A stretch of 64,000 nucleotides of DNA from Clavaria fumosa (taxonomy: Eukaryota; Basidiomycota; Agaricomycetes; Agaricales; Clavariaceae), in NCBI GenBank assembly GCA_951802425.1, contig OX637795.1, positions 4,692,501 through 4,756,500 on the forward strand, in the 5' to 3' direction. A program made the translations under genes and the position numbers. The first letter of the stretch is position 1; each line of letters starts with the position of its first letter. Positions 26,288 through 50,482 of the stretch are shown piece after piece. The notes below the pieces were generated by a model. It saw only the letters and a program-made list of their open reading frames with translations, ran no database searches and had not been told where the DNA came from.

Positions 26288-27417
26288 TTGGAGCACAAAC
26301 ATGACTTGCATTTGCGCTTCCTCATGGATTTCTCATGGACCGATGCTGTCAGTACTCTGATGCTTCTCGTGCCCTTGGTCTTTTGCTCATTACTGATGGT
26401 TCACAGCGCACCGGCTCGTTCCACTGTTGTAACAGCGGACGTCTCCACGCACGTGCCCCGCCAAGCGGCGGGACTTCCCTCTGCACGTTCCCGGGCACCC
26501 TCGCAACCCATATCTGCTTTCATTTTCAGTCCAAATCCCTCGTCCTCAGATGTGGTAAGGAGGAGGAGTGAATCAATTGCGCGCATGCACAGGGGATCGC
26601 GAGGCACTTTCAGGGGTGGAGGGCGGAGAGGAAACCACAATAATCATCCCAACCAGTCCGGGCCTGCCACAAGTACGGATTTCCTAGCTGTCTTATTACC
26701 GTTCACCGTTGGTACTTTCATTCCTCAAGATAGCCTTTATTTACTGTCTTCTCAGTTGTCAGATGACTGTGGCGAGTCACATACCTACCGTTTCACTTTG
26801 GAAGAGATTATGCAAGTGCTCAAGGTTTTGGATGCGCAAAATCTCACCTGCACCCTCTCTTTGCGCAACGTGACGGATCTGTGGAAGGAAGCAAACAATC
26901 AGATTCTCCATTCCCTGACAAATAACAAAATTATCATTGCTCACTCCGACAGCTCCGTCTCAGCTGGCAGTTTCTTCGACTCCCCAATGATGTTGATTGC
27001 GCCACGAACATCCCAGCAAGGGGATCGCCGGATTTTCAAGGATGCTGGACTTGCCGCATCTACTTTCACTTTATCAGCGCTGTTGCAACTCTCAAGTAAA
27101 GTAACCAACCCGCGCGACGATGATCACAGGCCCCTCCTTTTTTTTGGTGTGTCCTCTCTCTGTTACTGTAACAAATGCTCACTACTCATATCAATTTCCA
27201 GCCCCCCGCTTCCAAAATTTGAAGGGGCCTCTGCCTGGGGAAGAAACCCCCCATGCGTGTTTTCCGTGGCGGGTTTGGAAAACTTTACAGCGTTCTTCAC
27301 CGACTTCAACCAATATGGAAGGTCTTTGCATTGACACTTGTCTGCCGGTTAGTCCAATATGACCTGCCTTTAGCCTTAATCAATTCATGAAATCATTTAC
27401 CCATAGACGTCTTCAGA
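26288..27417 (+). pseudogene. HECT-like gene, 5' part, cut by the 23-kb element
   Basis: The frame covers an N-terminal region, an arginine/glycine-rich patch (HRGSRGTFRGGGRRGN) and a globular part (FTLEEIMQVLKVLDAQNLTCTLSLRN). An intron at 27,147-27,201 (GTGTGT to CCAG) joins in phase to PRFQNLKGPLPGEETPHACFPWRVWKTL. A second at 27,348-27,406 (GTTAGT to CATAG, phase 0) leads to an exon that is broken after 11 bases (ACG TCT TCA GA) by the inverted-repeat element. The rest of that exon resumes at 50,483. The protein's assignment comes from its 3' half. The start codon is uncertain: ATG 26,288 or 26,327, or an upstream exon. Confidence 0.6.
27411..27417. repeat. Target-site duplication CTTCAGA, left
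   Basis: CTTCAGA directly precedes the left inverted repeat (CACATAG at 27,418). The same seven bases follow the right inverted repeat at 50,476-50,482. Confidence 0.85.
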
Positions 27418-27770
27418 CACATAGTTCAGTCAGATATTCCAGTATACAACGGGATACCGGACACTGCAAATCCCCTGTATATAACGGGGTACCGGATTCC
27501 GCCAGAGATATCTGATTTTCTAGTAATATATGTGGCCGGTGGAGGATATCCTTGCCAGGATAACCATGGGTTCAGCGAATTAAATAGGATATTCTTGACC
27601 GGATAACCTCAGGTCCAGCAAAATTGGATAGGGTATCCGTGACTGGATTGAATCCAGGCCACCAAATTAAATAGGATATCCTTAACTGGATTGAATCCAA
27701 GCAACCAGAATAAATAGGATATCCATGACTGAAGAAAATCCAGGCCACCAAGTTAAATGGGATATCCTTG
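27418..27770 (+). repeat. Left terminal inverted repeat
   Basis: It begins CACATAGTTCAGTC and contains two related words, CAACGGGATACCGGACAC and AACGGGGTACCGGATTCC, before the first GGATATCC units. It is the inverted copy of 50,123-50,475 with few differences. The first 43-bp units here resemble the right array more than the bulk of the left array. Confidence 0.9.
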
Positions 27771-30700
27771 ACTAGTCTGAATCCAGTACCAAAGTAAATA
27801 GGATATCCTTGACTAGTTCCAATCTAGGCTACCAAAGGAAATAGGATATCCTTGACTAGTTTGGATCCAGGCTACCAAAATAAATGGGATATTCTTGACT
27901 AGTTCCAATCTAGGCTACCAAAGTAAATAGGATATCCTTGCCTAGTTTGAATCAAGGCTACCAAAATAAATAGGATATCCTTGACTAGTCTGAATCCAGT
28001 ACCAAAGTAAATAGGATATTCTTGACTAGTTCCAATCTAGGCTACCAAAGTAAATAGGATATCCTTGCCTAGTTTGAATCAAGGTACCAAAATAAATGGG
28101 ATATCCTTGACTAGTTCAAATCTAGGCTACCAAAATAAATAGGATATCCTTGCCTAGTTTGAATCATGGCTACCAAAATAAATAGGATATCCTTGACTAG
28201 TTTGAATCAAGGCTACCATAATAAATAGGATATCCTTGCCTAGTTTGAATCAAGGCTACCAAAATAAATAGGATATCCTTGCCTAGTTTGAATCCAGTAC
28301 CAAAGTAAATAGGATATCCTTGACTAGTTTGAATCCAGGCTACCAAAATAAATAGGATATTCTTGACTAGTTCCAATCTAGGCTACCAAAGTAAATAGGA
28401 TATCCTTGCCTAGTTTGAATCAAGGTACCAAAATAAATGGGATATCCTTGACTAGTTTGAATCCAGGCTACCAAAATAAATAGGATATTCTTGACTAGTT
28501 CCAATCTAGGCTACCAAAGTAAATAGGATATCCTTGCCTAGTTTGAATCAAGGCTACCAAAATAAATAGGATATCCTTGCCTAGTTTGAATCCAGGCTAC
28601 CAAAATAAATAGGATATCCTTGACTAGTTCCAATCCAGGCTACCAAAGTAAATAGGATATCCTTGCCTAGTTTGAATCAAGGTACCAAAATAAATGGGAT
28701 ATCCTTGACTAGTTTGAATCCAGGCTACCAAAATAAATAGGATATTCTTGACTAGTTCCAATCTAGGCTACCAAAGTAAATAGGATATCCTTGCCTAGTT
28801 TGAATCAAGGTACCAAAATAAATGGGATATCCTTGACTAGTTTGAATCCAGGCTACCAAAATAAATAGGATATTCTTGACTAGTTCCAATCTAGGCTACC
28901 AAAGTAAATAGGATATCCTTGCCTAGTTTGAATCAAGGCTACCAAAATAAATAGGATATCCTTGCCTAGTTTGAATCCAGGCTACCAAAATAAATAGGAT
29001 ATCCTTGACTAGTTTGAATCCAGGCTACCAAAATAAATGGGATATCCTTGACTAGTTTGAATACAGTACCAAAGTAAATAGGATATCCTTGACTAGTTCC
29101 AATCTAGGCTACCAAAATAAATGGGATATTCTTGACTAGTTCCAATCTAGGCTACCAAAGTAAATAGGATATCCTTGCCTAGTTTGAATCAAGGCTACCA
29201 AAATAAATGGGATATCCTTGACTAGTTTGAATCCAGGCTACCAAAATAAATAGGATATTCTTGACTAGTTCCAATCTAGGCTACCAAAGTAAATAGGATA
29301 TCCTTGCCTAGTTTGAATCAAGGCTACCAAAATAAATAGGATATTCTTGACTAGTTCCAATCTAGGCTACCAAAGTAAATAGGATATCCTTGCCTAGTTT
29401 GAATCAAGGTACCAAAATAAATGGGATATCCTTGACTAGTTCAAATCTAGGCTACCAAAATAAATAGGATATCCTTGCCTAGTTTGAATCATGGCTACCA
29501 AAATAAATAGGATATCCTTGACTAGTTTGAATCAAGGCTACCATAATAAATAGGATATCCTTGCCTAGTTTGAATCAAGGCTACCAAAATAAATAGGATA
29601 TCCTTGCCTAGTTTGAATCCAGTACCAAAGTAAATAGGATATCCTTGACTAGTTTGAATCCAGGCTACCAAAATAAATAGGATATTCTTGACTAGTTCCA
29701 ATCTAGGCTACCAAAGTAAATAGGATATCCTTGCCTAGTTTGAATCAAGGTACCAAAATAAATGGGATATCCTTGACTAGTTTGAATCCAGGCTACCAAA
29801 ATAAATAGGATATTCTTGACTAGTTCCAATCTAGGCTACCAAAGTAAATAGGATATCCTTGCCTAGTTTGAATCAAGGTACCAAAATAAATAGGATATCC
29901 TTGACTAGTTCCAATCTAGGCTACCAAAATAAATGGGATATTCTTGACTAGTTCCAATCTAGGCTACCAAAGTAAATAGGATATCCTTGCCTAGTTTGAA
30001 TCAAGGTACCAAAATAAATGGGATATCCTTGACTAGTTTGAATCCAGGCTACCAAAATAAATAGGATATTCTTGACTAGTTCCAATCTAGGCTACCAAAG
30101 TAAATAGGATATCCTTGCCTAGTTTGAATCAAGGTACCAAAATAAATGGGATATCCTTGACTAGTTTGAATCCAGGCTACCAAAATAAATAGGATATCCT
30201 TGACTAGTTCAAATCTAGGCTACCAAAATAAATAGGATATCCTTGCCTAGTTTGAATCACGGCTACCAAAATAAATAGGATATCCTTGACTAGTTTGAAT
30301 CAAGGCTACCATAATAAATAGGATATCCTTGCCTAGTTTGAATCAAGGCTACCAAAATAAATAGGATATCCTTGCCTAGTTTGAATCCAGGCTACCAAAA
30401 TAAATGGGATATCCTTGACTAGTTTGAATCCAGTACCAAAGTAAATAGGATATCCTTGACTAGTTTGAATCCAGGCTACCAAAATAAATAGGATATCCTT
30501 GACTAGTTCCAATCTAGGCTACCAAAATAAATAGGATATCCTTGCCTAGTTTGAATCACGGCTACCAAAATAAATAGGATATCCTTGACTAGTTTGAATC
30601 AAGGCTACCATAATAAATAGGATATCCTTGCCTAGTTTGAATCAAGGCTACCAAAATAAATAGGATATCCTTGCCTAGTTTGAATCCAGGCTACCAAAAT

Positions 30701-33700
30701 AAATGGGATATCCTTGACTAGTTTGAATCCAGTACCAAAGTAAATAGGATATCCTTGACTAGTTTGGATCCAGGCTACCAAAATAAATGGGATATTCTTG
30801 ACTAGTTCCAATCTAGGCTACCAAAGTAAATAGGATATCCTTGCCTAGTTTGAATCAAGGCTACCAAAATAAATGGGATATCCTTGACTAGTTTGAATCC
30901 AGGCTACCAAAATAAATAGGATATCCTTGACTAGTTCCAATCTAGGCTACCAAAATAAATAGGATATCCTTGCCTAGTTTGAATCCAGGCTACCAAAATA
31001 AATGGGATATCCTTGACTAGTTTGAATCCAGTACCAAAGTAAATAGGATATCCTTGACTAGTTCCAATCTAGGCTACCAAAATAAATGGGATATTCTTGA
31101 CTAGTTCCAATCTAGGCTACCAAAGTAAATAGGATATCCTTGCCTAGTTTGAATCAAGGCTACCAAAATAAATGGGATATCCTTGACTAGTTTGAATCCA
31201 GGCTACCAAAATAAATAGGATATTCTTGACTAGTTCCAATCTAGGCTACCAAAGTAAATAGGATATCCGTGCCTAGTTTGAATCAAGGTACCAAAATAAA
31301 TGGGATATCCTTGACTAGTTTGAATCCAGGCTACCAAAATAAATAGGATATCCTTGACTAGTTCCAATCTAGGCTACCAAAATAAATAGGATATCCTTGC
31401 CTAGTTTGAATCACGGCTACCAAAATAAATAGGATATCCTTGACTAGTTTGAATCAAGGCTACCATAATAAATAGGATATCCTTGCCTAGTTTGAATCAA
31501 GGCTACCAAAATAAATAGGATATCCTTGACTAGTTTGAATCCAGGCTACCAAAATAAATGGGATATCCTTGACTAGTTTGAATCCAGTACCAAAGTAAAT
31601 AGGATATCCTTGACTAGTTCCAATCTAGGCTACCAAAATAAATGGGATATTCTTGACTAGTTCCAATCTAGGCTACCAAAGTAAATAGGATATCCTTGCC
31701 TAGTTTGAATCAAGGCTACCAAAATAAATGGGATATCCTTGACTAGTTTGAATCCAGGCTACCAAAATAAATAGGATATTCTTGACTAGTTCCAATCTAG
31801 GCTACCAAAGTAAATAGGATATCCTTGCCTAGTTTGAATCAAGGTACCAAAATAAATGGGATATCCTTGACTAGTTTGAATCCAGGCTACCAAAATAAAT
31901 AGGATATTCTTGACTAGTTCCAATCTAGGCTACCAAAGTAAATAGGATATCCTTGCCTAGTTTGAATCAAGGTACCAAAATAAATGGGATATCCTTGACT
32001 AGTTTGAATCCAGGCTACCAAAATAAATAGGATATCCTTGACTAGTTCAAATCTAGGCTACCAAAATAAATAGGATATCCTTGCCTAGTTTGAATCACGG
32101 CTACCAAAATAAATAGGATATCCTTGACTAGTTTGAATCAAGGCTACCATAATAAATAGGATATCCTTGCCTAGTTTGACTCAAGGCTACCAAAATAAAT
32201 AGGATATCCTTGCCTAGTTTGAATCCAGGCTACCAAAATAAATGGGATATCCTTGACTAGTTTGAATCCAGGCTACCAAAATAAATGGGATATCCTTGAC
32301 TAGTTTGAATACAGTACCAAAGTAAATAGGATATCCTTGACTAGTTCCAATCTAGGCTACCAAAATAAATGGGATATTCTTGACTAGTTCCAATCTAGGC
32401 TACCAAAGTAAATAGGATATCCTTGCCTAGTTTGAATCAAGGCTACCAAAATAAATGGGATATCCTTGACTAGTTTGAATCCAGGCTACCAAAATAAATA
32501 GGATATTCTTGACTAGTTCCAATCTAGGCTACCAAAGTAAATAGGATATCCTTGCCTAGTTTGAATCAAGGTACCAAAATAAATGGGATATCCTTGACTA
32601 GTTTGAATCCAGGCTACCAAAATAAATAGGATATTCTTGACTAGTTCCAATCTAGGCTACCAAAGTAAATAGGATATCCTTGCCTAGTTTGAATCAAGGC
32701 TACCAAAATAAATAGGATATCCTTGCCTAGTTTGAATCCAGGCTACCAAAATAAATAGGATATCCTTGACTAGTTCCAATCCAGGCTACCAAAGTAAATA
32801 GGATATCCTTGCCTAGTTTGAATCAAGGCTACCAAAATAAATGGGATATCCTTGATTAGTTTGAATCCAGGCTACCAAAATAAATAGGATATCCTTGCCT
32901 AGTTTGAATCAAGGCTACCAAAATAAATAGGATATCCTTGACTAGTTCCAATCTAGGCTACCAAAATAAATAGGATATCCTTGCCTAGTTTGAATCAAGG
33001 CTACCAAAATAAATAGGATATCCTTGACTAGTTTGAATCCAGGCTACCAAAATAAATAGGATATTCTTGACTAGTTCCAATCTAGGCTACCAAAGTAAAT
33101 AGGATATCCTTGCCTAGTTTGAATCAAGGCTACCAAAGTAAATGGGATATCCTTGACTAGTTTGAATCCAGGCTACCAAAATAAATAGGATATCCTTGCC
33201 TAGTTTGAATCAAGGCTACCAAAATAAATGGGATATCCTTGACTAGTTTGAATCCAGGCTACCAAAATAAATAGGATATTCTTGACTAGTTCCAATCTAG
33301 GCTACCAAAGTAAATAGGATATCCTTGCCTAGTTTGAATGAAGGTACCAAAATAAATGGGATATCCTTGACTAGTTTGAATCCAGGCTACCAAAATAAAT
33401 AGGATATTCTTGACTAGTTCCAATCTAGGCTACCAAAGTAAATAGGATATCCTTGCCTAGTTTGAATCAAGGTACCAAAATAAATGGGATATCCTTGACT
33501 AGTTTGAATCCAGGCTACCAAAATAAATAGGATATCCTTGACTAGTTCAAATCTAGGCTACCAAAATAAATAGGATATCCTTGCCTAGTTTGAATCACGG
33601 CTACCAAAATAAATAGGATATCCTTGACTAGTTTGAATCAAGGCTACCATAATAAATAGGATATCCTTGCCTAGTTTGACTCAAGGCTACCAAAATAAAT

Positions 33701-36700
33701 AGGATATCCTTGCCTAGTTTGAATCCAGGCTACCAAAATAAATGGGATATCCTTGACTAGTTTGAATCCAGGCTACCAAAATAAATGGGATATCCTTGAC
33801 TAGTTTGAATACAGTACCAAAGTAAATAGGATATCCTTGACTAGTTCCAATCTAGGCTACCAAAATAAATGGGATATTCTTGACTAGTTCCAATCTAGGC
33901 TACCAAAGTAAATAGGATATCCTTGCCTAGTTTGAATCAAGGCTACCAAAATAAATGGGATATCCTTGACTAGTTTGAATCCAGGCTACCAAAATAAATA
34001 GGATATTCTTGACTAGTTCCAATCTAGGCTACCAAAGTAAATAGGATATCCTTGCCTAGTTTGAATCAAGGTACCAAAATAAATGGGATATCCTTGACTA
34101 GTTTGAATCCAGGCTACCAAAATAAATAGGATATTCTTGACTAGTTCCAATCTAGGCTACCAAAGTAAATAGGATATCCTTGCCTAGTTTGAATCAAGGC
34201 TACCAAAATAAATAGGATATCCTTGCCTAGTTTGAATCCAGGCTACCAAAATAAATAGGATATCCTTGACTAGTTTGAATCCAGGCTACCAAAATAAATG
34301 GGATATCCTTGACTAGTTTGAATCAAGGCTACCAAAATAAATAGGATATCCTTGACTAGTTCCAATCCAGGCTACCAAAGTAAATAGGATATCCTTGCCT
34401 AGTTTGAATCAAGGCTACCAAAATAAATGGGATATCCTTGATTAGTTTGAATCCAGGCTACCAAAATAAATAGGATATCCTTGACTAGTAAATAGGATAT
34501 CCTTGCCTAGTTTGAATCAAGGCTACCAAAATAAATAGGATATCCTTGACTAGTTCCAATCTAGGCTACCAAAATAAATAGGATATCCTTGCCTAGTTTG
34601 AATCAAGGCTACCAAAATAAATAGGATATCCTTGACTAGTTTGAATCCAGGCTACCAAAATAAATAGGATATCCTTGACTAGTTCAAATCTAGGCTACCA
34701 AAATAAATAGGATATCCTTGCCTAGTTTGAATCACGGCTACCAAAATAAATAGGATATCCTTGACTAGTTTGAATCAAGGCTACCATAATAAATAGGATA
34801 TCCTTGCCTAGTTTGAATCAAGGCTACCAAAATAAATAGGATATCCTTGCCTAGTTTGAATCCAGGCTACCAAAATAAATGGGATATCCTTGACTAGTTT
34901 GAATCCAGGCTACCAAAATAAATGGGATATCCTTGACTAGTTTGAATACAGTACCAAAGTAAATAGGATATCCTTGACTAGTTCCAATCTAGGCTACCAA
35001 AATAAATGGGATATTCTTGACTAGTTCCAATCTAGGCTACCAAAGTAAATAGGATATCCTTGCCTAGTTTGAATCAAGGCTACCAAAATAAATGGGATAT
35101 CCTTGACTAGTTTGAATCCAGGCTACCAAAATAAATAGGATATTCTTGACTAGTTCCAATCTAGGCTACCAAAGTAAATAGGATATCCTTGCCTAGTTTG
35201 AATCAAGGTACCAAAATAAATGGGATATCCTTGACTAGTTTGAATCCAGGCTACCAAAATAAATAGGATATTCTTGACTAGTTCCAATCTAGGCTACCAA
35301 AGTAAATAGGATATCCTTGCCTAGTTTGAATCAAGGCTACCAAAATAAATAGGATATCCTTGCCTAGTTTGAATCCAGGCTACCAAAATAAATAGGATAT
35401 CCTTGACTAGTTTGAATCCAGGCTACCAAAATAAATGGGATATCCTTGACTAGTTTGAATCAAGGCTACCAAAATAAATAGGATATCCTTGACTAGTTCC
35501 AATCCAGGCTACCAAAGTAAATAGGATATCCTTGCATAGTTTGAATCAAGGCTACCAAAATAAATGGGATATCCTTGATTAGTTTGAATCCAGGCTACCA
35601 AAATAAATAGGATATCCTTGCCTAGTTTGAATCAAGGCTACCAAAATAAATAGGATATCCTTGACTAGTTCCAATCTAGGCTACCAAAATAAATAGGATA
35701 TCCTTGCCTAGTTTGAATCAAGGCTACCAAAATAAATAGGATATCCTTGACTAGTTTGAATCCAGGCTACCAAAATAAATAGGATATTCTTGACTAGTTC
35801 CAATCTAGGCTACCAAAGTAAATAGGATATCCTTGCCTAGTTTGAATCAAGGCTACCAAAGTAAATGGGATATCCTTGACTAGTTTGAATCCAGGCTACC
35901 AAAATAAATAGGATATCCTTGACTAGTTCCAATCTAGGCTACCAAAATAAATAGGATATCCTTGCCTAGTTTGAATCAAGGCTACCATAATAAATAGGAT
36001 ATCCTTGCCTAGTTTGAATCAAGGCTACCATAATAAATAGGATATCCTTGCCTAGTTTGAATCAAGGCTACCAAAATAAATAGGATATCCTTGACTAGTT
36101 CCAATCCAGGCTACCAAAGTAAATAGGATATCCTTGATTAGTTTGAATCCAGGCTACCAAAATAAATAGGATATCCTTGACTAGTTCCAATCTAGGCTAC
36201 CAAAGTAAACAGGATATCCTTGATTAGTTTGAATCCAGGCTACCAAAGTAAATAGGATATCCTTACCTAGTTTGAATCAAGGCTACCAAAATAAATGGGA
36301 TATCCTTGATTAGTTTGAATCCAGGCTACCAAAATAAATAGGATATCCTTGACTAGTTCCAATCTAGGCTACCAAAGTAAATAGGATATCCTTGCCTAGT
36401 TTGAATCAAGGTACCAAAATAAATAAGATATCCTTGCCTAGTTTGAATCAAGGCTACCATAATAAATAGGATATCCTTGCCTAGTTTGAATCAAGGCTAC
36501 CAAAATAGATAGGATATCCTTGCCCAGTTTGAATCAAGGCTACCAAAATAAATGGGATATCCTTGACTAGTTTGAATCAAGGCTACCAAAGTAAATAGGA
36601 TATCCTTGCCTAGTTTGAATCAAGGCTACCAAAATAAATGGGATATCCTTGATTAGTTTGAATCCAGGCTACCAAAATAAATAGGATATCCTTGACTAGT

Positions 36701-38560
36701 TCCAATCTAGGCTACCAAAGTAAATAGGATATCCTTGCCTAGTTTGAATCAAGGTACCAAAATAAATAAGATATCCTTGCCTAGTTTGAATCAAGGCTAC
36801 CATAATAAATAGGATATCCTTGCCTAGTTTGAATCAAGGCTACCAAAATAGATAGGATATCCTTGCCTAGTTTGAATCAAGGCTACCAAAATAAATGGGA
36901 TATCCTTGACTAGTTTGAATCAAGGCTACGAAAGTAAATAGGATATCCTTGCCTAGTTTGAATCAAGGCTACCAAAATAAATAGGATATCCTTGACTAGT
37001 TCCAATCTAGGCTACCAAAGTAAACAGGATATCCTTGATTAGTTTGAATCCAGGCTACCAAAGTAAATAGGATATCCTTACCTAGTTTGAATCAAGGCTA
37101 CCAAAATAAATGGGATATCCTTGATTAGTTTGAATCCAGGCTACGAAAGTAAATAGGATATCCTTGCCTAGTTTGAATCAAGGCTACCAAAATAAATAGG
37201 ATATCCTTGACTAGTTCCAATCTAGGCTACCAAAGTAAACAGGATATCCTTGATTAGTTTGAATCCAGGCTACCAAAGTAAATAGGATATCCTTACCTAG
37301 TTTGAATCAAGGCTACCAAAATAAATGGGATATCCTTGATTAGTTTGAATCCAGGCTACCAAAATAAATAGGATATCCTTGACTAGTTCCAATCTAGGCT
37401 ACCAAAGTAAATATGATATCCTTGCCTAGTTTGAACCAAGGCTACCAAAATAAATAGGATATCCTTGACTAGTTTCAATCTAGGCTACCAAAGTAAATAG
37501 GATATCCTTGACTGGTTGTAATCCAAGCCGCCAAAGTCAATAGGATATCCGTGACTGGTTTGAATCAAGGCTACCAAAGTAAATAGGATATCCTTGCCTA
37601 GTTTGAATCAAGGCTACCAAAATAAATGGGATATCCTTGATTAGTTTGAATCCAGGCTACCAAAATAAATAGGATATCCTTGACTAGTTCCAATCTAGGC
37701 TACCAAAGTAAATAGGATATCCTTGCCTAGTTTGAATCAAGGTACCAAAATAAATAAGATATCCTTGCCTAGTTTGAATCAAGGCTACCATAATAAATAG
37801 GATATCCTTGCCTAGTTTGAATCAAGGCTACCAAAATAGATAGGATATCCTTGCCTAGTTTGAATCAAGGCTACCAAAATAAATGGGATATCCTTGACTA
37901 GTTTGAATCAAGGCTATGAAAGTAAATAGGATATCCTTGCCTAGTTTGAATCAAGGCTACCAAAATAAATGGGATATCCTTGATTAGTTTGAATCCAGGC
38001 TACCAAAATAAATAGGATATCCTTGACTAGTTCCAATCTAGGCTACCAAAGTAAATAGGATATCCTTGCCTAGTTTGAACCAAGGCTACCAAAATAAATA
38101 GGATATCCTTGACTAGTTTGAATCAAGGCTACCATAATAAATAGGATATCCTTGCCTAGTTTGAATCAAGGCTACGAAAGTAAATAGGATATCCTTGCCT
38201 AGTTTGAATCAAGGCTACCAAAATAAATAGGATATCCTTGCCTAGTTTGAATCAAGGTACCAAAATAAATGGGATATCCTTGACTAGTTTGAATCCAGGC
38301 TACCAAAATAAATAGGATATCCTTGACTAGTTCAAATCTAGGCTACCAAAATAAATAGGATATCCTTGCCTAGTTTGAATCACGGCTACCAAAATAAATA
38401 GGATATCCTTGACTAGTTTCAATCCAGACCACCAAATTAAATAGGATATCCTTGAACGGTTGTAATCCAAGCTGCCAAAGTCAATAGGATATCCGTGACT
38501 GGTTTGAATCCAAGCCACTACATTAAATAGGATATCATTGGAGATATTTGGATATCCATG
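27545..38560 (+). repeat. Left subterminal satellite, 43-bp unit, about 250 copies
   Basis: Each unit reads AGGATATCCTTGACTAGTT, a variable CCAATCTAGG or TGAATCCAGG part, and CTACCAAAATAAAT; 41-bp units lacking two bases (CCAGTACC, AAGGTACC) recur regularly. GGATATCC is a palindrome and many units also hold ACTAGT. The array shows higher-order repeats: 31,741-32,760 recurs at 33,241-34,260, exactly 1,500 bp on, with a single mismatch seen, and further blocks recur at about 1.14 kb and 1.32 kb. Outer units at both edges (27,600-27,780 and 38,410-38,560) keep the older form shared with the right array. There is no coding potential. Confidence 0.95.
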
Positions 38561-38638: not shown

Positions 38639-41600
38639 TTAGATTGGCTCCAGTTGACAACTACTTCTAAAAATCTTCCTTGCATGTCCTTCAAATCTTT
38701 CCCATACCACCTCCTGCTTGTGAGCATAACATGCCAGCCCACTCCTTACATTTCTTTCATTCATTGCTATTTGCTCCCATTGATCTTTCTTGTGCTTGAA
38801 AAATGCGGCTGTCCACTTCATTTCCTGCTGAAGCAAAGTGACTTCCTCATCCCAGCGATTGAACCTTGCACTTGCTCTCAACCAAACCACTCTGTAGACT
38901 AATCATTTGTCAATTTTTCATTCATGACATACCACACCATCCACTCACATTCCTTCATTCTCTCACTGCATTCTCCTTTGTTCATCCCACTATCCAACCT
39001 CCACAACCAGGATAGTTTCTCTGATCGCTGACCAATCCTGTTTTCTTCGATCACGTCCCCAGGCATTTTCAAGTCATCTTTTGAGATGTCCTGATACTTT
39101 GGATCCAGGGACCCCAGTCTCTGGGCTGCAGCTCGAGCCCTTTTATATTCCCTGACTGCCTGCTGTACCCGTGACTCCATGGAGTGCACTTGACTCCAAG
39201 CTCTGGTAGCAAGTTGTTGACTCTTGCACTTCTGGACCTGAACAATTGATATCTCAGTGCTGGTATTAAAATGATCAATGAGCCCACCTTTTCTCTGAAT
39301 ATAAGAGACTTCTCCCCCAAGGCAATCCTAAGTTTTTCAAGGGCATCATTCATTTGTCCAACCCGGAGTTTTGCTTCACATGCAGCCATGTCTTCCAAAC
39401 CACTTTCCATGTGATTCTCGCCACCCATGTTTGATGGAAGGAATATAGTCATCGCCTCGGGGTGAAGCCCATTGCTGTCATCCTCCCACTCATCAGCTGT
39501 GCCCAGATCATTGTCCTCGATCTCGCTTTCATTCTCCTGGTACAATAGATGGTTTTCTCCCAAGTCAATAGCCTTGCCCATGAAGAGAGTCGAGTCAGAC
39601 CAGCATTTCTCATATTTTGTAATCCTGATTTGAAGGCGCCTTCTTTTCTCCTCAAGCTCTCTTCGCTGGGATGTTGAAGGTTTTCTCAGTGTCTTTGTAT
39701 ATGCTGCTAATGATGCTCTAGTGGTATGTGAATGTAAATCGCAAAGAAATACACGTCATAATGAGAACTTACTGTTCATTTTCCAACTGTATGCCTAAAG
39801 CTAGAAGACTGGCACCACCAGATAAATCACCTGTGTTCCGTTCCTTCTGTGATAGCTCTAGTTCAATTTCTGCACAGCTAGGGGCTTCAAAGCACTTCAA
39901 TCAAAAGCAAAAAGGGGTAAGAAATGGCCGACCATTTGTTTTTGCAACATCATATATTCTGAGCAAATCTCCTCGCTCAGTCATTGCTCTTTCCTCCAAT
40001 TGCCTCCACTCTGATACCCATGTATGGCTGATTCTAGCTGTCAATTCATCCAGAGCTGATTTAGTTTCTGCCTGTTGCTGTTGCGCATTCTTCCACTTCG
40101 TAAGGATTGAATGTGCTTTGTTTTAAACACATCAAAAAAATATCTATGACCATAAGAACACATACTTACATGCTTTGATCATCTTCTTCCAGTTAGAATC
40201 ATTCATGTGGTTGTCGAGAACCTCCTGTCGATGAGCTTGAGACATTCCTCTGGTATGGCTGGCTGCTTTGCCAAGGGTTGACCAGAGACTTTCCAAAATC
40301 TCGCCATCCAATTGCCCCACACCTTGAACAAAGTTCAAGGAGAAAAGTGCAAAGCACTCCTTGATATGTGCTCCCAAGTGAAATTTCCCTACTGTTGTGA
40401 TAATCTTCAGGCCATCATCGAGATGCAGGTATTTGCTTGCTTCAACTCGGTCCCGAAAGTGTCTTCCCCATTCACATCCTATGTCATAGACAAAAAGCAC
40501 CTTCTTGATGACATTTACTCTCTGAAGGGCTTGGCAAAGTGAATAATCAATGTTTGCCTGCCTGAAAAAACAAAACTTAGCCCAGACACCTTGAAGATTA
40601 TAAGTCTTACCTCTCTCCCTTCTGAAAATCAACGAAGCTGTGTGGATAAAAGCATCCATGACGTGCACAAGCACATACTCCGCCTCCAGTTGCTCGTAGG
40701 TGATCTCGTTTTCGTCCACTGTGACCGTTCACCTGGGTAATTGCTCGATGATTGTGACATCTTGGTTTCTATAGAATGTTGTCAACAAATATCCTGAATG
40801 GTGTCCAACTTGAAGGGTCACCTGTTTTACTTCGACAGATGCAGCAATGTGAGCTTGGTAGGGTTTATCCTGGACCATAAAACCTCTTCCATCACTTAAG
40901 GAGACATCACCCTCAGAGCATTTCGACTTCACATGCTCCAGTTTAAAATTTCCATCAGCTACGATAGATCGGTGATAAATGCTACTGTAATTTTTAATCA
41001 ATTTCTGCATTTGGAAAAAAATTTAATGAACTTACGGATTCATGGATTCTTTCACCTCTTCAACTGCCACATTTATTCCAGGTTGAGGGCAGGTAGGGCA
41101 AAAAAGTGCAAGGTCACCAGGTGTCTGCTCTTGCTCAGGATGATGTGCAAATCCTGCCCTCTTAAGCATTTCCAGATGCCTCCACTGTCTTGAGACCCTC
41201 ATGAGTTCACGGTAACGATCCTGAAAACCTTTGGGGTTAGGATGTTGTATCTAATCAGGAGGTTTTGCTACTTACTGGGATCGAAGAGGGAAATCCACTA
41301 TTAGTCATTCTCTGCAGCTTTGAGTAGAAGCTTCATGCAGCAGTTTTGCACTCCATAACATCGATATGAAACAACTTGAGGACATCAAATGTGAATGCAG
41401 TTGAGGGCCTCTGAAGACTGGCAGGGAAAAAGCGCATCCGAAGCAGCTGGAGATGATTAGATGGTGCATTTGGACAGATGCACCATTTCACTGGACGCTT
41501 GAAAACACCAGAGCTGGTTATGAATGTTATTCCATGAGTCTGTTGAAAGCTGTCCACCCCTGGCAGCAGTTCTTCCAGAGACTCATCATCATCAGACTCA

Positions 41601-42287
41601 TCCCCATCCCAGATTCTTCGTTCATCAATCACAGTGTGAGGAAGTTCAGCATGGTATCCAGGGCACAAATTGCCGCCATGGCCAAGATTGATGGAAAGCC
41701 CCATATCTCCAAGGTCGCTCCTGTCAAAAAATGTTCCTGTCCATTTTTTGATTTGATGGAATGGATGGCGTTGATGTTGCAGAAGACAGCAATCAAGGCA
41801 GACGAGTTGGGTGCTGTACAAACAGTCAAAACACCGGTATAAAGCCAAGGGTTTGTGACAGAGCATGCAGTTCTGGTTTTCAGGAGGAGCTTCAAACTCC
41901 ATTAATTCAGAGAGATGCAGATTGCATGCATTGTCCTTCCATTCTTGAAGGAAATCATTTTGTGTCTGCAGAATGTCAATGTAAATCAAAATTGGTCAGA
42001 ATTAATTCAACTACCTTCCCCTTTCTTGGCCTTTTTGAATTTGAATCTGAACTTTCCTGTCCAGGCAGTATGTCGTCCTTCCCAAAATCCAAATTTTCAT
42101 ACAGATGGCTGGGCTCCCTTGCTCGTTTTTTAGGTTGAGATGGGGATTGAGAACCTGCTCTAGTGTTATGAGTGATCTGCTGATCTTTTTTCCTGACCTT
42201 CCTCCCCCTTGAGAGCTTTTTTATTGTGTATGTTCTCTCTACTGCTCGTCCTTCTTTCCCAATGACTGACCGCATCTTGAGTGACAT
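38639..42287 (-). CDS. KDZ transposase with CxC2 cysteine cluster, spliced, two in-frame TGA
   Basis: Exon 1 (42,287-42,015) is basic with KKLSRGRKVRKKD. The intron 41,966-42,014 leads to the CxC2 module: CMLCHKPLALYRCFDCLYSTQLVCLDC, then PFHQIKKWTGTFF and SINLGHGGNLCPG. Later exons carry YHRSIVADGNFKLEHVK and SDGRGFMVQDKPYQAH, and the catalytic core: VYDIGCEWGRHF, VGKFHLGAHIKECF and DGEILESLWS, followed by TRGMSQAHRQEVLDNHMND. The long helical C-terminus (HTWVSEWRQLEERAM, then NRWDEEVTLLQQEMKW) matches KDZ proteins. TGA codons at 41,333-41,335 and 40,729-40,731 lie in conserved reading and are not at obvious introns, so this copy may be inactive or suppressed. Cut-and-paste transposition is the expected role; the ends at 27,418 and 50,475 are the likely substrates. 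Confidence 0.85.
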
Positions 42288-42877: not shown

Positions 42878-44531
42878 TCAGACAATATTATACATCAAAC
42901 GTGGCAACTTCCATATACCATCCACAATGGCCGGAGTTCCGTACAACAGGCGAGTGGCCCATCCCGTCGGGCCCTTTGGCAAGGTTGCGTCACCCAAGCC
43001 AGAGGGTTTCTTGTCGGCCCAACCACAAGGACAGCTTGCCTGGTAACTGCCCGATTTGCTGTCCAGTAGCTTGAATGTGAGGGTCCGAATTGCGTAACAC
43101 TTCGGGCACTGGAGGGCGACGGCATCACCAAATGGGCGGAGTTGGTGGTGAACCCATATGTATTCCAAGGCGAATCTGTGAGACAAAAGAAGGATGGAGG
43201 TGTGGGCACCAAGACCCTCCTCCTCCTTGAGAAGATCTGGCAGAATTCGGAGGATCGAGAAACATTCGATGAAATTTTTGATGATAAGTTTTGTGAGGAA
43301 TGGAATAGCTAGATGGGGAAAGAAATTGGCTTGGCCAAAGCCAATGACGTGATTGAAATATGCACTGGGCATCATCAGCATTGGAAGCAGGGGTGGGGCC
43401 AAGACATACCTTTGAGCAAAATCCGTCACTGCTTTGCATGACGCCACGTTCTCCCAAACTCCGCCACAAACCTCGAGGACAAGAAGTGAATGTACTTCCT
43501 GTGCAAACTGAAGGAGATCTTGCCCAAAAATTTGAGCCAGAAACTTTTGAAAAGGTAGACTACATCAGTAAGCGACCATTTGATGGTATGGATGAGCTTA
43601 CGCTTTCAACTTGGATTCCTGAGTTATTAGCACAATGGAGGTCACCATTCTCGGGATTGGCGTGGGTAAACAGGAATACGACGAGCCTCCGGACTCCAAA
43701 TCTGTTTGGAGCAATCAGCTGCGTTCAATCGTAATAAAACGGACTCACTGTTGAAAGCTTTTGATGATATCCTTGAGAACTCTCTGATGCTTGGCCAATG
43801 ATCTTGGATTCGCCGCATCAATATCCAAGACTACCTCTTTGGTAAATAACATCCTTCTTTCAGATATGCTGGCGAACCAGCCGGCCAAGGTGTTGGCGAC
43901 GGAAATGTATGGATCGCCTTGGGTTGGGATCGTGCACAGTCGAATGTTGACGATGGCCAACGAGTTCGTGTTTTGCCGTGCGTAATTGCCCCTTAGTGTC
44001 GTGGGCTTGATATGCCCAATGACACTTTTGATGGGCTCGCCGTTGCGGTAGAGAGGCTGTAATACAACATTCTGTGTCAATAAATTTGTGTTGATAAAGA
44101 TCAGTACTTACATAGAAGGGCTCAGCTCGATTCTCTGAGCCTAAATGACAGCCCATGCAAAAAAAATTGACGTCGGGCTCTTTGATGAGCTTGGAGCCTC
44201 CGGAAAGATCGAGGCATTTGCTGCACACGGCTCGCTCACAAAAATCGCAGTCCAAGAGATTTCCGCCATCGCCGCAGCTGCAGCACCACTGCAAAAGGTC
44301 AGTACTATATTAGATGGAGTTAAGTAGTCTGACTTCATCATTTGGGGCTCTGTCACCTGTCTGTGTCCCTTGATCAGCTCGATCAAATCGACAGAAGAGT
44401 CGAGGACTCACCCTAATTCCAATCGGTTGAGCGATAGGCTGCGCATTTTGTTTGATGGCAGACGGGTGAAGGGTCACTCTCACACATGGAGCACCAGTTG
44501 ACCTGGATGCCGATTGTTTCGTTCTTGGCAT
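42878..44531 (-). CDS. H3-tail-mimic PHD/ADD protein of the transposon
   Basis: The protein starts MPRTKQSASRSTGAP, close to the histone H3 tail (ARTKQTARKSTGG): R2, T3, K4, Q5, A7, S10, T11 and G12 positions agree, while K9 is arginine. A phase-0 intron (44,289-44,411, GTGAGT to GCAG) joins residue 40 to a cysteine module, WCCSCGDGG...CDFC...CSKC...CMGC, of PHD or ADD type (residues 41-88). Further exons give QPLYRNGEPIKSVIGHIKPT and SISERRMLFTKEVVLDIDAA. A segment LVVFLFTHANPENGDLHCA follows, then helices (HLAIPFLTKLIIKNFIECFS) and a C-terminal CPKC...CPCGW pair. No internal stop is needed by the model. PHD/ADD modules read H3 tails, so the mimic may act in cis or compete with H3; this is inference. 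Confidence 0.65.
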
Positions 44532-44810
44532 TGTGACGGTTCGAGGTCAAAGTGCTTAGCCGCTCAGCCACTCGGTGGTCACGTGACTTACACGTAGGAG
44601 CAGAATCTCGCCTTATAACGGGTATGAGAGTTCGACAAATTACAAGTAATTATTACAAGTCACATGAAAAAAGTATATGGTCAGGGCAGAAAGGATACTC
44701 AATGTGGCCGGCATTGAATATCCCCGCTACCCCTCCCCTACTACGACATGAATAACTACTGCTACAGCGCACAAAAGACAAAAAAAGGACGACTTGTCAG
44801 CGGATGTTTG
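44532..44810. other. Promoter side of the H3-mimic gene
   Basis: No gene is seen. ATTACAAGTAATTATTACAAGT at 44,639-44,660 is a short repeat. The sequence turns into the direct repeat that starts at 44,811. Confidence 0.35.
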
Positions 44811-45165
44811 GTGTGAAGACCGGTGAGTCGGGATGTGTCGAAGACGTGATTGTGCTGGAGGGATAGTCAGTGTCAATGTCAGTAAAATAGTAAATGGAAA
44901 CACATGAAACACCCACATTCCCTGCTCCAGACAAGTGTCAGGTGCGAAGACCCGTGTGTCGGGTGTGAAGACCAGTGAGTCGGGATGTGTCGAGGACGTG
45001 ATTGTGCTGGAGGGATAGTCAGTGTCAATGTCAGTAAAACAGTAAATGGAAACGCACGAAACACCCACATTCCCAACAAATACAAGTGTCGGGTGCGAAG
45101 ACCCATGTGTCAAGACACGCTTTGCCAGAAGGATAGAGAGTGTCAATATGAGTAAAATGGGAAAT
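44811..45165. repeat. Direct repeat, unit 152 bp, two copies plus a partial third
   Basis: GTGTGAAGACCGGTGAGTCG at 44,811 recurs at 44,963 as GTGTGAAGACCAGTGAGTCG, an offset of 152 bp. Each unit includes GTCAGTGTCAATGTCAGTAA and GAAACACCCACATTCCC. A truncated third copy follows near 45,100. Open frames over it are artefacts of the repeat. Confidence 0.85.
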
Positions 45166-45189
45166 GGAAACGCACCAAAGTGCCTGCGG

Positions 45190-45730
45190 CCCTAGATCTT
45201 CAAGACTGCCGAAGGTCTGTGGCATGCGCCGAGGCGCCCAGCCCTGCCCCAGATCATCAAGACCACCGAGGGTCTTGGGAGTGAGCGCACCGAGGCGCTC
45301 ACCCCCTGCCCCCAGATCGAAAAAGACCATCGAAAAAGACCACCGAGGGTCTTGGGAGTGAGCGCACCGAGGCGCTCACTCCCTGCCCACAGATCGAAAA
45401 AGACCACCGAGGGTCTTGGGAGTGAGCGCACTGAGGCGCTCACTCCCTGCCCACAGATCGAAAAAGACCACCAAGGGTCTTGGGAGTGAGCGCACCGAGG
45501 CGCTCACCCCCTGCCCCCAGATCGAAAAAGACCATCGAAAAAGACCACCGAGGGTCTTGGGAGTGAGCACACCGAGGCGCTCACTCCCTGCCCCCAGATC
45601 GAAAAAGACCACCGAGGGTCTTGGGAGTGAGCGCACCGAGGCGCTCACCCCCTGCCCCCAGATCGAAAAAGACCACCGAGGGTCTTGGGAGTGAGCGCAC
45701 CGAGGCGCTCACTCCCTACCCCCAGACCAA
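45190..45730. repeat. CpG-rich hairpin minisatellite, 64-bp unit
   Basis: Seven or eight units read GACCACCGAGGGTCTTGGGA, then GTGAGCGCACCGAGGCGCTC, then ACTCCCTGCCCCCAGATCG and AAAAA; two units carry an 11-bp extension (GACCATCGAAAAA). Every unit contains a perfect ten-base inverted repeat (GAGTGAGCGC / GCGCTCACTC) with a six-base loop ACCGAG. Several CpG sites per unit are kept although the surrounding elements have lost theirs. Overlapping open frames on both strands are repeat artefacts. Confidence 0.9.
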
Positions 45731-45762
45731 AAGACTGCAAAAGAGATGTTTATGTATCTAAG

Positions 45763-45818
45763 GTAGCCTTAGTAGACAAATGACCGTATGCATCTGGTCA
45801 TTTGTCTACTAAGGCCAC
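45763..45818. repeat. Strong hairpin, 23-bp stem
   Basis: GTAGCCTTAGTAGACAAATG plus ACC pairs with the later GGTCATTTGTCTACTAAGG plus CCAC with one mismatch, around a ten-base loop GTATGCATCT. A third partial copy (GTCTACTAAGGCTAC) follows at once. It could be a terminator-like structure or the end of a small DNA element. Confidence 0.75.
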
Positions 45819-45947
45819 CGTCTACTAAGGCTACATAAAAGATAAAATAAAATACGTACCTGTGAGTCAAGAGAGTCGACGAGTTCGAGGAAAGAAGACG
45901 GTAGTAGTGGTTAAGGAGAAAGAGATGAGCGTCGAAGCGGTCGGAGT

Positions 45948-46403
45948 TGGAAATATTTTAAACGAATGATCACGTGACCGTTGGATCCCCGCGCGACACG
46001 GTCACATGGTCTGACTACGTTGCACATGATATGGGGGCAATCCCTGCCAAACACGGGGTTGTTTGTGAATGTTGTGACCTCCCACGGTCACATGGTCTGA
46101 CCACGTTGCACATGATATGGGGGCAATCCCTGCCAACACGGGGTTGTTTGTAAATGTTGTGACCTCCCACCACTGACCCAAAGGTTGTGACGAAGTTGCA
46201 GGCTTACACAGGCATTTTGAAGCTTAGTTTTAGTGAGACAAAATGATCACAGATTTAATTTGGGTAGATTGTCCAAGATGAAATTTCTAATTTCTCCCTC
46301 AATATTTAAATACGAGCACTGGATTATGCAACGTGGTCAGACCATGTGACCGTGTCGCGCGGGGATCCAACGGTCACGTGATCGTTCGTTTAAAATATTT
46401 CCA
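45948..46403. repeat. 456-bp inverted-repeat block between divergent genes
   Basis: The left arm TGGAAATATTTTAAACGAAT... and the right arm are inverted copies over about 75 bp with two differences. Each arm contains GATCACGTGACCGTTGG and CCCCGCGCGACACGGTCACA. The interior has two direct copies (46,003-46,086 and 46,087-46,170) of a block with GCACATGATATGGGGGCAAT. No target duplication is evident. It lies between the minus-strand H3-mimic gene and the plus-strand gene and may be a MITE or a shared control region; CACGTG is a classic bHLH/bZIP-type site. Confidence 0.7.
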
Positions 46404-46443
46404 CCTCTGCCTCCTGCCTCCCTGCCTCAAAGCTAAGTCAGGC

Positions 46444-49219
46444 ATGCCTTGGGCTATCGATCTCTATATTCCTATCCTAGAAAATGCCTTCCCAATGTGG
46501 CTTGCCACAAAGGGTAAGGAGCGGTCAGATCGCATCAGAACTACTGTGCAGCAGTTGCGGGAGGCTCATCAGCAACGGGTTTCCAAGGGAAAACGGCTGC
46601 CTGAGCTGCCTCTGGATCTCTCAAAGGTAAATTGACAAGTAATTACATTTTTTTGGACTAAAAACTCAGTAGGCTGTTCAAACATGGTTCAAAAATGCGA
46701 GAGCCAAACGAGTATCAGGGGGTCACCCAATGTCTCGCAGTCGAGATGATGCTGATGATGGAAATGGCCAAGGTGATGGCAACAATGGGAGTGATGATGA
46801 TGTTGAGGGGGAAGATAAGAATAATGAGAGGTCGGTGTGGGGGCGTAAATGGAACCTGAGACGAGTAGTTGGACGAGTTTATCAAGAGGAAGTGCAGCAG
46901 GAAGTAACGAGGTTGGTTGAGGAGGGCCGGACACCATTTGCGGCATATCAGCCAGCACTCACGAAAGTGTTGAATGGCCTTTCCGAAGCGGACAGGAAAC
47001 AATGTACGGACCAAGCACATGCTTGGAATTCAGGTGCATGGCCTCACGATCTGCAGAGGGAGTGAGTATTTTATATCTGTGACATTCTCCCCTTCTCATT
47101 CCTGTTTAGGATGGCCGAGAAAGACTTATATAAAGTTGTCACACAATTCATGGACGATGTGTACCGCAAGATGGGGGTACATGTCTTCATGCTCACGTCA
47201 TTTGAGGATGAGGAGGGTCAGGCGATTTGCTCAAAGTAATTTTTGCTTTGTCTGCTGTCTCTCCATGCTAATCTATGTCTAAGGTTCGAAACGAGCAACA
47301 AAGGGCAAAAATTCACCAAGGCATGTGTGGATTGGAAAACTGGGAAAATTTGGCCCAGCTGGTGCAGATACAATGCGTCTTTGGGAAATAGTAAGTAGTT
47401 TATTTCACTAAGTTGTCTGGTATTAATTATCATCCAGATAATTATCAAGAAGACGACAGATCTTGGGGGAAGCTGAACTACGACGATGCTGGCTACCCCC
47501 TCCTTGGGAAACTCCCACTTGACGTCTCACTTCCTTCTTTGAAGGACGTGATTCGTGAATTTGTGAAGGCTGTCTACTGTAAGATTTTTTTCTCACTTCT
47601 GAATCATGACTTATATCATTTTCAGTGGTTCAAAAGCAAACTGCACTTGTTCCATGGAAAAGAATCGCTGCCAGTCCTGAAGAATTTGTAAAGGATGGCA
47701 TTCCGCCAGACAGCCGCCTTCAAGATCCTTCATACATGCCCAAGACTGAGGCAATTGCCTTGTATTCTTACTGGTACACGAAACAGCAGCAAGGCCTGAG
47801 GCCTTTGACATTCATCAGGTTGGGTATGGATTCAGATGTGGGAAACGAAGTGTTAGATGATGGTCCAGACGCCGCTGACAAGGACGCAGAGCCGGAGGCA
47901 AAGGGGACAGACGCGCTGTCTGAGAGAGCGCTGACAGTTGACAAGGGCAAGAAAGTAGTTGGATTCGAGCCTGCCCCAGGCTCTCCAGCAACAGCCGTCA
48001 ACCGTCTTGCATACCTGAAGAAACTAACAAATCAACAAGACTATGTCCATGCACTCAAGCTTCTCCAATATGCAGTATGTTTATTTGTCTTTTGAGGGTC
48101 AGTATCTGAGTCTGTGGCAGCGTCCAGGAACCACCAGCCGTCTCATCCCAGCAACCTTCGCCTGCTGGACATTTGACAACGAATGGCTACCGAAGGAATT
48201 TTTCTCTTCAGACCTTGAACATCCGGACAGTGCTGTTGCCTTTTCTGATTGGATCAGGGCATCGTCTTGGAGAGGCTCTTTGCCAAACTCAGTGGCACCA
48301 CCTGGGTTCATCGAAAGGATATTGCTCGGCCTAGGACTCGGACTCAAACAACTCAGCGAAATCCTTTTCACTGAGCCTGACTCTATTGCGCCAAATACAC
48401 CAGGATATTGTCTCAATGCTGAGCTTCCACTGTGGGATGCAATGACCCAAGCTGCTGCTTACTTGTCTGCTAGTGTTAAAATGTAAGAATTTATTTGTTC
48501 TGTCTCTTTTAAGTCTAAATGAAAATTTAGACTGGAAGCCAACGCATTGCAAACCTCTCAGGGTGTTATGCGGACTCTGAAGCCTCGACCATTTAAGCTC
48601 AGCAGCCTTCCATCTTTGATCCAACGGGCATCACAGGATATGGGTCTGGGTCACCATGACGTACAAAGCCTTGGCAATGATTGGTATGCGTTATGTGAGG
48701 CATGGATTGCCGCTGAGACAGCTTTGGGGAGCCTTGGAGGGACTCCATTAAAATTGGAGAATCGACAGGTTGCAGTTCCTGAATCACTCAGGAACTGGAG
48801 TCAAGCACGCCAAGCTCGTAACTGGGATGACACACAAGACTTTTCGGGGATTGCAGACGACATGGCCAACTGGTGGCAACAAATAATGCCACATGGAGTT
48901 CTGCGCGATGCAGATGCGCTCATCCTGACTGACTGGTGTGGGGCAGGGCTCGCAGGTATTGCGATGGTTATGGTAGGAATGAAGACGTGGGGATTGACGC
49001 TGAAAGACGACGACAAGGTCGACTGGACCACAATGGTACGAGAAATTTCAGCTGTTTTCAAACTGATTCCATTGGCTCGAGGCCTGTGAGTCTATCTCAA
49101 ATAATTGTGATTACAACTATTAACAAAGCACAGGAATAAATCACTAAGGAGAGGAAGAGACCAAGGAAAAGAGGCAGTGATAGGTGCAAAAAGAGTCAAA
49201 GTGGGAACTGCGACTTGAA
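46444..49219 (+). CDS. Large spliced gene of the 23-kb element, unrecognised
   Basis: Exon 1 begins MPWAIDLYIPILENAFPMWLATKGKERSD and ends at a donor at about 46,627 (GTAAAT); exon 2 begins VQTWFKNARAKRVSGG, a short WFxN motif like the third helix of homeodomain-type folds. Exon 2 continues with an acidic run and RRVVGRVYQEEVQQEVTRL. Further exons include FVKDGIPPDSRLQDPSYMPKTEA, WQRPGTTSRLIPATFACWTFD, GFIERILLGLGLGLKQL, and DADALILTDWCGAGLAGIAMVMVGMKTWGL. Introns begin GTGAGT (47,062), GTAAGT (47,390), GTATGT (48,074), GTAAGA (48,484) and GTGAGT (49,087). The last exon is a basic tail (LRRGRDQGKEA...AKRVKVG) ending at 49,219. About 800 residues, no obvious stop. I do not know its role; a DNA-binding or chromatin function is conjecture. 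Confidence 0.55.
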
Positions 49220-49309
49220 ATATGCTACTTATCAATGAAGTACATGGAAATATTGTGGACAGTAACCACGTACATAAAGTGAATCACATGACAGTTGCCA
49301 GAGATGCAA

Positions 49310-50330
49310 AATATCCTATGTAATGTGGTGGCCTTGATTCAAACCAGTCAAGGATATCCTATTTAATTTGGTGGCCTGGATTCACACCAGTCAAGGATAT
49401 CCTATTTAATTTGGTGGATTGGATTCAAACCAGTCAAGGATATCCCATTTAATTTGTTGGCTTGGATTCAAACTAGTTAAGGATATCCTATTTAATTTGG
49501 TGGCTTCAATTCAAACCAGTCAAGGATATCCTATTTCATTTGGTAGCCTTGATTCAAACCAGTCAAGGATATCCTATTTAATGTGGTAGTCTTGATTCAA
49601 TCCAATTAAGGATATACTATTTAATTTGGTGGCTTGGATTCAAACCAGTCAAGGATATCCTATTTAATTTGTTGGCTTGGATTCAAACTAGATAAGGATA
49701 TCCTATTTAATTTGGTGGCTTCAATTCAAACCAGCCAAGGATATCCTATTTAATTTGGTGGCTTGGATTCAAACCAGTCAAGGATATCCTATTTAATTTG
49801 TTGGCTTGGATTCAAACTAGTTAAGGATATCCTATTTAATTTGTTGGCTTGGATTCAAACTAATTAAGGATATCCTATTTAATTTGGTGGCTTGGATTCA
49901 AACCAGTCAAGGATATCCTATTTAATTTGGTGGATTGGATTCACACCAGTCAATGATATCCTATTTAATTTGGTACCTTGGATTGAAACCAGTCAAGGAT
50001 AACCTATTTAAATTGGTGGCTTGGATTTAAACCAGTCAAGGATATCCTATGTAATTTGCTGGCTTGGATTCAAACCTGTCAAGGATATCCTATTTATTAT
50101 GGTATCCCTGATTCAATCCAATCAAGGATATTCCATTTAATTTGGTGGCCTGGATTTTCTTCAGTCATGGATATCCTATTTATTATGGTTGCTTGGATTC
50201 AATCCAGTTAAGGATATCCTATTTAATTTGGTGGCCTGGATTCAATCCAGTCACGGATACCCTATCCAATTTTGCTGGACCTGAGGTTATCCGGTCAAGA
50301 ATATCCTATTTAATTCGCTGAACCCATGGT
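49310..50330 (-). repeat. Right subterminal satellite, 43-bp unit, about 24 copies
   Basis: On the plus strand the unit reads GGATATCCTATTTAATTTGG, then TGGCTTGGATTCAAACCAGT, then CAA: 43 bp, the reverse complement type of the left array. The right array keeps CCAGTCAA where most left units have CTAGTCAA, and AATTTGGTGG where the left has TATTTTGGTAG. It is irregular, with many single changes, and shows no higher-order repeats, so it looks like the unexpanded form. Confidence 0.92.
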
Positions 50331-50475
50331 TATCCTGGCAAGGATATCCTCCGCCGGCCACATATATTACTAGAAAATCAGATATCTCTGGCGGAATCCG
50401 GTACCCCGTTATATACAGGGGATTTGCAGTGTCCAGTATCCCGTTGTATACTAGAATATCCGACTGAACTATGTG
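50123..50475 (-). repeat. Right terminal inverted repeat
   Basis: It ends CTGAACTATGTG at 50,475 and is the inverted copy of 27,418-27,770. The CCGGTACCCCGTTATATACA word is kept in both arms. Confidence 0.9.
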
Positions 50476-50482
50476 CTTCAGA
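50476..50482. repeat. Target-site duplication CTTCAGA, right
   Basis: CTTCAGA follows the right inverted repeat directly and matches 27,411-27,417. Confidence 0.85.

Follow-up and report, generated by a model that had tools for sequence, protein, structure and literature searches.

A KDZ transposon family of Clavaria fumosa with palindromic arrays at its ends and a gene whose product starts like the tail of histone H3

Kyakuja, one of the three lineages of KDZ DNA transposons, includes two families described with 7-bp target site duplications and CA..TG ends (Kojima, 2025; PMC12730594). Zisupton, a member of the same superfamily with terminal inverted repeats (TIRs), as in the element described here, is reported to make duplications of 8 bp, unlike the 7 bp of the present family (PMC12730594), and in Cryptococcus the duplications are given as 8 bp for KDZ1 and 4–8 bp for KDZ2/3 (PMC12810828). 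Large KDZ elements, of 30.3 kb in Ectocarpus and 31.7 kb in Chlamydomonas, have also been reported (PMC12477816). Here, we analyze a KDZ transposon found in a stretch of 64,000 nucleotides of the basidiomycete Clavaria fumosa (GenBank assembly GCA_951802425.1, contig OX637795.1, positions 4,692,501 to 4,756,500; hereafter the window), together with its copies in the genome. For elements of this kind neither the size nor the 7-bp duplication is new, and both are expected from published work; an earlier note on this DNA had contrasted the 7 bp with the 8 bp of Zisupton, and the oddity this implies is at odds with the duplications published for Kyakuja (PMC12730594). Apparently new, as far as we searched, are a gene, gene A, that joins an H3-tail-like start to an ADD/PHD-like finger, a core of three genes present in each of the ten copies read, and 43-bp arrays with the octamer GGATATCC at both ends, of highly variable length, with 44-bp GAATATTC units in a diverged family. 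A literature search that took in few subscription papers returned no published fungal transposon-encoded H3 mimic.

The earlier note had read the locus as a large KDZ transposon lying in an exon, with inverted ends over about 350 bp, CTTCAGA on either flank, and a KDZ transposase gene and two further genes inside; all of this was borne out (Table 1), by many copies and by an empty paralogous site among other results (see below). The TIRs are 93–100% identical per 30-base step as far as base 330; identity then falls to 80%, 47% and 10% in successive steps. The transposase gene, gene B, has a KDZ domain (PF18758, E 6e-30, 105 bits against a cut-off of 26.6) and a CxC2 cysteine cluster (PF18803, E 1.3e-19, 70.8 bits against a cut-off of 27); a CxC2 cluster likewise precedes all intact KDZ transposons described from Pleurotus ostreatus (PMC7641404). 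Coding probably continues to about position 38650. Of ten copies, six have no stop in the 681 codons of gene B that were examined. The window copy is not among them: its codon 302 is an in-frame TGA, and with the transposase frame so interrupted it would depend on transposase supplied by another copy. Gene C, the coding region of which probably continues to about 49100, is free of internal stops in nine of the ten copies over 391 codons.

The genome (48.8 Mb in 17 contigs, C1 and so on; the window is C2:4692501-4756500) was searched with the first 353 bases of the element. At least 40 long end matches were found besides the query, one being the window's own right end; among those listed, 37 span 351–353 of the 353 bases at 88–99% identity and three are partial. 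The search for inverted pairs that the earlier note had proposed gave 16 paired units among the listed ends, counting the window's own unit, with lengths from 13.6 to 43.7 kb, and 12 of them have a perfect 7-bp duplication. These represent ten independent insertions, because the units of the window, C3 and C4 have one common target. When ends were mismatched as a control, only three of 240 pairings gave a perfect 7-bp match, all three traceable by their flanks to copies of one target locus, and an 8-bp flank match was seen in none of the 16 units. The remaining four units comprise one with a 6/7 match, one with 5/7, one with unrelated flanks and one with a truncated left end; CA..TG termini are present at both ends of the 15 units other than the truncated one. 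One unit is flanked on its sides by array sequence and was therefore inserted within another copy. Eight listed ends are unpaired; one more, at C5:1444587, is situated immediately outside the nested unit. Ten whole copies among the 16 pairs have a common core of 10.4–11.3 kb, with long BLAST segments 97.8–99.8% identical, and all ten carry the three genes. Transposition by the KDZ transposase is well supported. Two of the units with perfect duplications are unusually long, C2:3135931-3179614 (43.7 kb) and C1:1194188-1233399 (39.2 kb); gene spacing places the extra DNA between the genes in the former and beyond gene C in the latter.

Gene A, the product of which the earlier note did not describe, has no internal stops in nine of the ten copies. 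The first 20 residues of its product resemble the histone H3 tail, with 10–11 identities over the 20 positions in the five sequences tested, matched by at most one in 500,000 shuffles, and an ADD/PHD-like finger follows. An H3-like start was present in seven of the eight diverged gene A loci read, which form five groups of near-identical sequence. Between the window and one of these loci (L063), the most telling of 28 pairs, the 21 codons at the start carry 11 synonymous differences and no nonsynonymous ones, and the complete proteins are 72% identical; a second between-group pair shows 12 and one. Because of these two ratios, the start seems, from the sequences compared, to have been kept by selection. 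In five aligned gene A sequences the finger has eight invariant Cys residues; it matches the ADD domain of ATRX at E 1.2e-4 by sequence and 8.5e-4 by profile. The profile search also matches engineered fusions of an H3 tail to a finger (2l43, E 0.014; 3a1b, E 0.056) and, among the 60 matches listed, many H3 chains at E 0.27–2.2. His215 and Cys261 are likewise invariant in the five aligned sequences, and the C-terminal part has a possible zinc ribbon.

Relatives of gene A were found at 42 further loci among the matches listed, in a genome with 185 KDZ and 64 TET matches. Twenty-eight of the 42 lie within 12 kb of a listed KDZ or TET match, as against 8.4% of random positions (18 with KDZ, 14 with TET, four with both); gene C lies within the same distance at ten, and the order C-A-KDZ is kept at six loci (Table 1). 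None of the 64 TET matches falls within any of the 16 units of the window family, so far as TET/JBP was searched for. A tree was built from 23 KDZ domains of our choosing, all from this genome; in it the window and the domains linked to gene A or TET form a group of 13 (support 0.70) and the other ten fall outside; the exceptions within the group are C5:3526521, with neither gene noted alongside, and C1:137644, with gene A only at 46 kb. Near contig ends lie five gene A homologs with almost the same score (C1:91835, C4:4503220, C5:40430, C11:2703582 and C12:43173), each 46–51 kb from a KDZ match, these also scoring equally, which suggests a repeated subtelomeric KDZ unit.

It could be that this is an ordinary KDZ/Kyakuja transposon with two passenger genes and no anti-silencing activity, the H3-like start serving, for instance, as a nuclear or degradation signal. 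Fungal KDZ elements reportedly often carry accessory genes (PMC12477816), and in library searches no curated family matched gene A above cut-off. That genes A and C keep the same order in diverged families, and that the first 21 codons seem to be under selection, tell against mere passengers, and we consider this possibility unlikely, if still a serious one.

About half of the element consists of the tandem arrays, which the earlier note does not mention. Their 43-bp unit, ATAGGATATCCTTGACTAGTTTGAATCCAGGCTACCAAAATAA, has the palindrome GGATATCC, counted 24–222 times in the left and 19–88 times in the right array over ten copies (window orientation). A diverged family, family 2, known from one copy at C4 and from one side of it, the other side not having been found, contains GAATATTC 29 times in an array of about 43 units, each of 44 bp, adjoining the element end CACATCGTTCAGTCAG (shorter form CACATCGTTCAGTC). 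In shuffled controls the mean maximum octamer count was 3.6 for the window, against 218 observed, and 1.05 for family 2, against 29. The arrays might be no more than selfish satellites that have expanded through slippage during replication and through unequal exchange, with no role in binding. Their length does vary greatly among copies of one insertion, the left array measuring 11.1 kb in the window, 5.6 kb at C3 and 2.3 kb at C4, while the flanks of these copies differ by merely 0.31–0.46%, although assembly collapse could contribute. Harder to reconcile with satellite growth is that two diverged families keep a 43–44-bp period and one dominant palindromic octamer at the element ends (218 occurrences in some 254 units in the window, and 29 in some 43 in family 2, the latter from a single side); such an origin therefore seems to us rather doubtful. 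Between genes A and C, at about 45920–46420, is a region of short inverted repeats, and this region is rearranged in at least one copy.

The element interrupts a 60-nt exon that is in frame and has identical splice sites in a paralog on C8, the sequence having been read at both. Excision of the element and one CTTCAGA restores a GAA codon, as the earlier note had stated. At C8:2599286-2601356 a single CTTCAGA is found with no insert, in one alignment running through the junction. The empty site that the note had called for thus exists, as a diverged paralog and not as an allele: identity to the window flanks is 76–80%, dropping to 68% over the 255 bases that follow the junction on the right. 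The description of the host gene as HECT-like was not upheld by Pfam or PDB matching. Eight host open reading frame pieces, two of them on the opposite strand, had no Pfam match with an E below 0.11 (Usp38-like_N and WDR11, neither reaching the cut-off); a spliced 379-residue piece matched no Pfam family up to E 5, its best PDB match having an E of 0.51. The window flanks recur at 99–100% identity on both sides of the units at C3 and C4 and on one side at C7. Divergence among the copies is similar in flanks (0.31–0.53%) and cores (0.34–0.56%), and four core sites are exclusive to the window, C3, C4 and C7 copies; for these reasons the four units seem, by sequence, to be a single insertion duplicated along with its surroundings. 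The foreign second flank of the C7 unit suggests exchange between copies. An assembly artefact or segmental duplication in place of a transposon, to which the recurrence of target locus and insert at C2, C3, C4 and partly C7 might point, is very improbable and refuted as a whole explanation by ten independent insertions at different sites with perfect 7-bp duplications, one within another copy's array, and by the empty site on C8; duplication accounts only for the repeats of this one locus. On the right, the duplicated block matches C4 to about window position 63432 and C3 to the window end, and window positions 55476–64000 contain dispersed repeats present at many places (76–97% identity); the left flank copy at C3 has an extra segment of 3.6 kb (C3:232720-236302) that is not in the window copy.

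Table 1. Coordinates of the element, its genes, repeats and target exon in the window, and loci elsewhere with the gene order C-A-KDZ.
Feature	Position	Strand	Details
KDZ DNA transposon	27418-50475		23,058 bp; termini CACATAG..CTATGTG
Target site duplication, left copy	27411..27417	.	CTTCAGA
Target site duplication, right copy	50476..50482	.	CTTCAGA
Left TIR	27418..27762	+	~345 bp; starts CACATAGTTCAGTC
Right TIR	50131..50475	-	ends GACTGAACTATGTG
Left tandem array	27628..38540	+	~254 units of 43 bp; GGATATCC x218; overlaps inner TIR
Right tandem array	49311..50315	-	~23 units of 43 bp; GGATATCC x17; overlaps inner TIR
Gene B, KDZ transposase with CxC2 cysteine cluster	39934..42287	-	7 exons checked, 681 codons
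Gene A	42878..44531	-	5 exons, 456 aa; H3-tail-like N-terminus, ADD/PHD-like zinc finger
Internal minisatellite	45229..45726	.	64/77-bp units; between genes A and C
Gene C	46444..47852	+	6 exons checked, 391 codons; conserved WF(K/T)N motif
Interrupted 60-nt host exon, first part	27407..27417	+	ACGTCTTCAGA
Interrupted 60-nt host exon, remainder	50483..50531	+	ends before GTGAGT
Order C-A-KDZ	C1:4075517-4081412		
Order C-A-KDZ	C4:2570918-2577038		
Order C-A-KDZ	C8:2063291-2068864		
Order C-A-KDZ	C11:507266-513091		
Order C-A-KDZ	C3:1762433-1768712		
Order C-A-KDZ	C3:388172-395457		

Among 223 biallelic sites in the ten cores, 186 are C>T or G>A, and 167 of these are at CpG, that is, 29% of CpG cytosines as against about 0.5% of others, which is a mark of methylated CpG. 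A TET-linked KDZ family (L048–L055, eight copies) has the same strong bias, which affects 42% of CpG sites but 0.7% of other C/G positions (23% and 0.3% when its diverged copy is left out), and because families with and without TET are alike in this, the result argues against TET simply protecting the element, at least at this level.

The explanation that we favor as a whole, and to which we give about an even chance of being right, is a KDZ transposon most like the Kyakuja lineage, with end arrays that serve as binding sites and a gene A that counters silencing. The KDZ transposase would act on the CACATAG ends and cut the target with a 7-base stagger, and the arrays would be candidate clusters of binding sites for an element protein, either the transposase or the gene C product. 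Gene A would be an anti-silencing factor acting by histone mimicry: its H3-like N-terminus may occupy its own ADD/PHD-like finger, as a built-in switch, or else the tail may draw host H3 readers and writers off the element, and expression of a CpG-methylated transposon would be aided. A chromatin role for genes A and C is suggested because of the histone mimicry and the H3-reading type of finger. More broadly, Kyakuja-type transposons might encode a conserved histone mimic (H3-like tail, ADD/PHD-type finger and possible protease domain) that defeats heterochromatin, gene C or the transposase directing the effect to family-specific palindromic arrays, a parallel to VANC beside or instead of TET; we offer this generalization tentatively and think it improbable as it stands.

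Several observations weigh against these proposals. The window family is itself CpG-decayed, so any anti-silencing is incomplete, and 14 of the 42 listed gene A relatives have no listed KDZ or TET match within 12 kb. One of the eight diverged loci (L057) lacks the H3-like start, and between-group pairs other than the 11-to-0 pair differ at 4–12 synonymous and 1–13 nonsynonymous codons. In the profile search that matched H3, unrelated sodium channel subunits appear at E 0.13–0.16, in the range of the H3 matches; the PHD match of gene A (E 1.9) is far below the Pfam cut-off, and any PHD family is matched by one of five gene A members only (E 0.023). A clan CD protease in the middle of gene A is possible, from the two invariant residues and what we take to be a clan CD peptidase motif, for which the libraries give no support; no Pfam or PDB sequence match to such a peptidase was found, the modelled piece of gene A does not include the His, and the predicted local distance difference test score (pLDDT) is under 50 around the Cys. 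Gene C is a weak candidate for DNA binding, with Homeodomain matches at E 0.037–0.083, other helix-turn-helix families at E 0.0075–0.028 in two of five members and no PDB match. Finally, the near-absence of CpG from the window arrays (observed/expected 0.05–0.06) is not common to the family 2 array (0.63).

TET-carrying transposons had already pointed to a struggle over DNA methylation in mushrooms; if the reading of gene A is true, an H3-mimicking transposon protein with an H3-reading finger would add a histone side to it, and the arrays would provide candidate binding sites that can be counted and are specific to each family. Among described elements, Kyakuja-1_LB and Kyakuja-2_LB of Laccaria bicolor resemble the window element in their KDZ transposase, 7-bp duplication and CA..TG ends, and differ in having TET/JBP and, reportedly, no TIRs (PMC12730594), whereas the window element has TIRs of about 345 bp, long arrays, genes A and C, and no TET match in 16 units. 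The absence of TIRs is described for those two Laccaria families and is no established criterion for the Kyakuja lineage; the words PHD and protease do not occur in the main text of that paper (PMC12730594). KDZ1, KDZ2 and KDZ3 of Cryptococcus neoformans share a CxC-domain KDZ transposase and TIRs (139–241 bp), but are about 9–11 kb long and have CxC1 instead of CxC2, and the part of the paper available to us describes no arrays or genes A and C (PMC12810828). The giant KDZ elements of Ectocarpus and Chlamydomonas have, as here, extra genes and nested insertions and reach at least 30 kb, but are algal, with no H3-like protein in the available part of their description (PMC12477816). Two further likenesses are by mode only. 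VANDAL transposons of Arabidopsis, of another superfamily, are described as combining an anti-silencing protein, VANC, with fast-changing noncoding tandem repeats, the counterpart function in the window element being presumptive (PMC10398659). Galileo, of the P superfamily and thus with a transposase unlike KDZ, is reported to have long inverted ends that are repetitive internally and offer its transposase many binding sites (PMC3688188). The changing palindromic end arrays of the window element, where binding is putative, resemble both the VANC target repeats and the Galileo ends.

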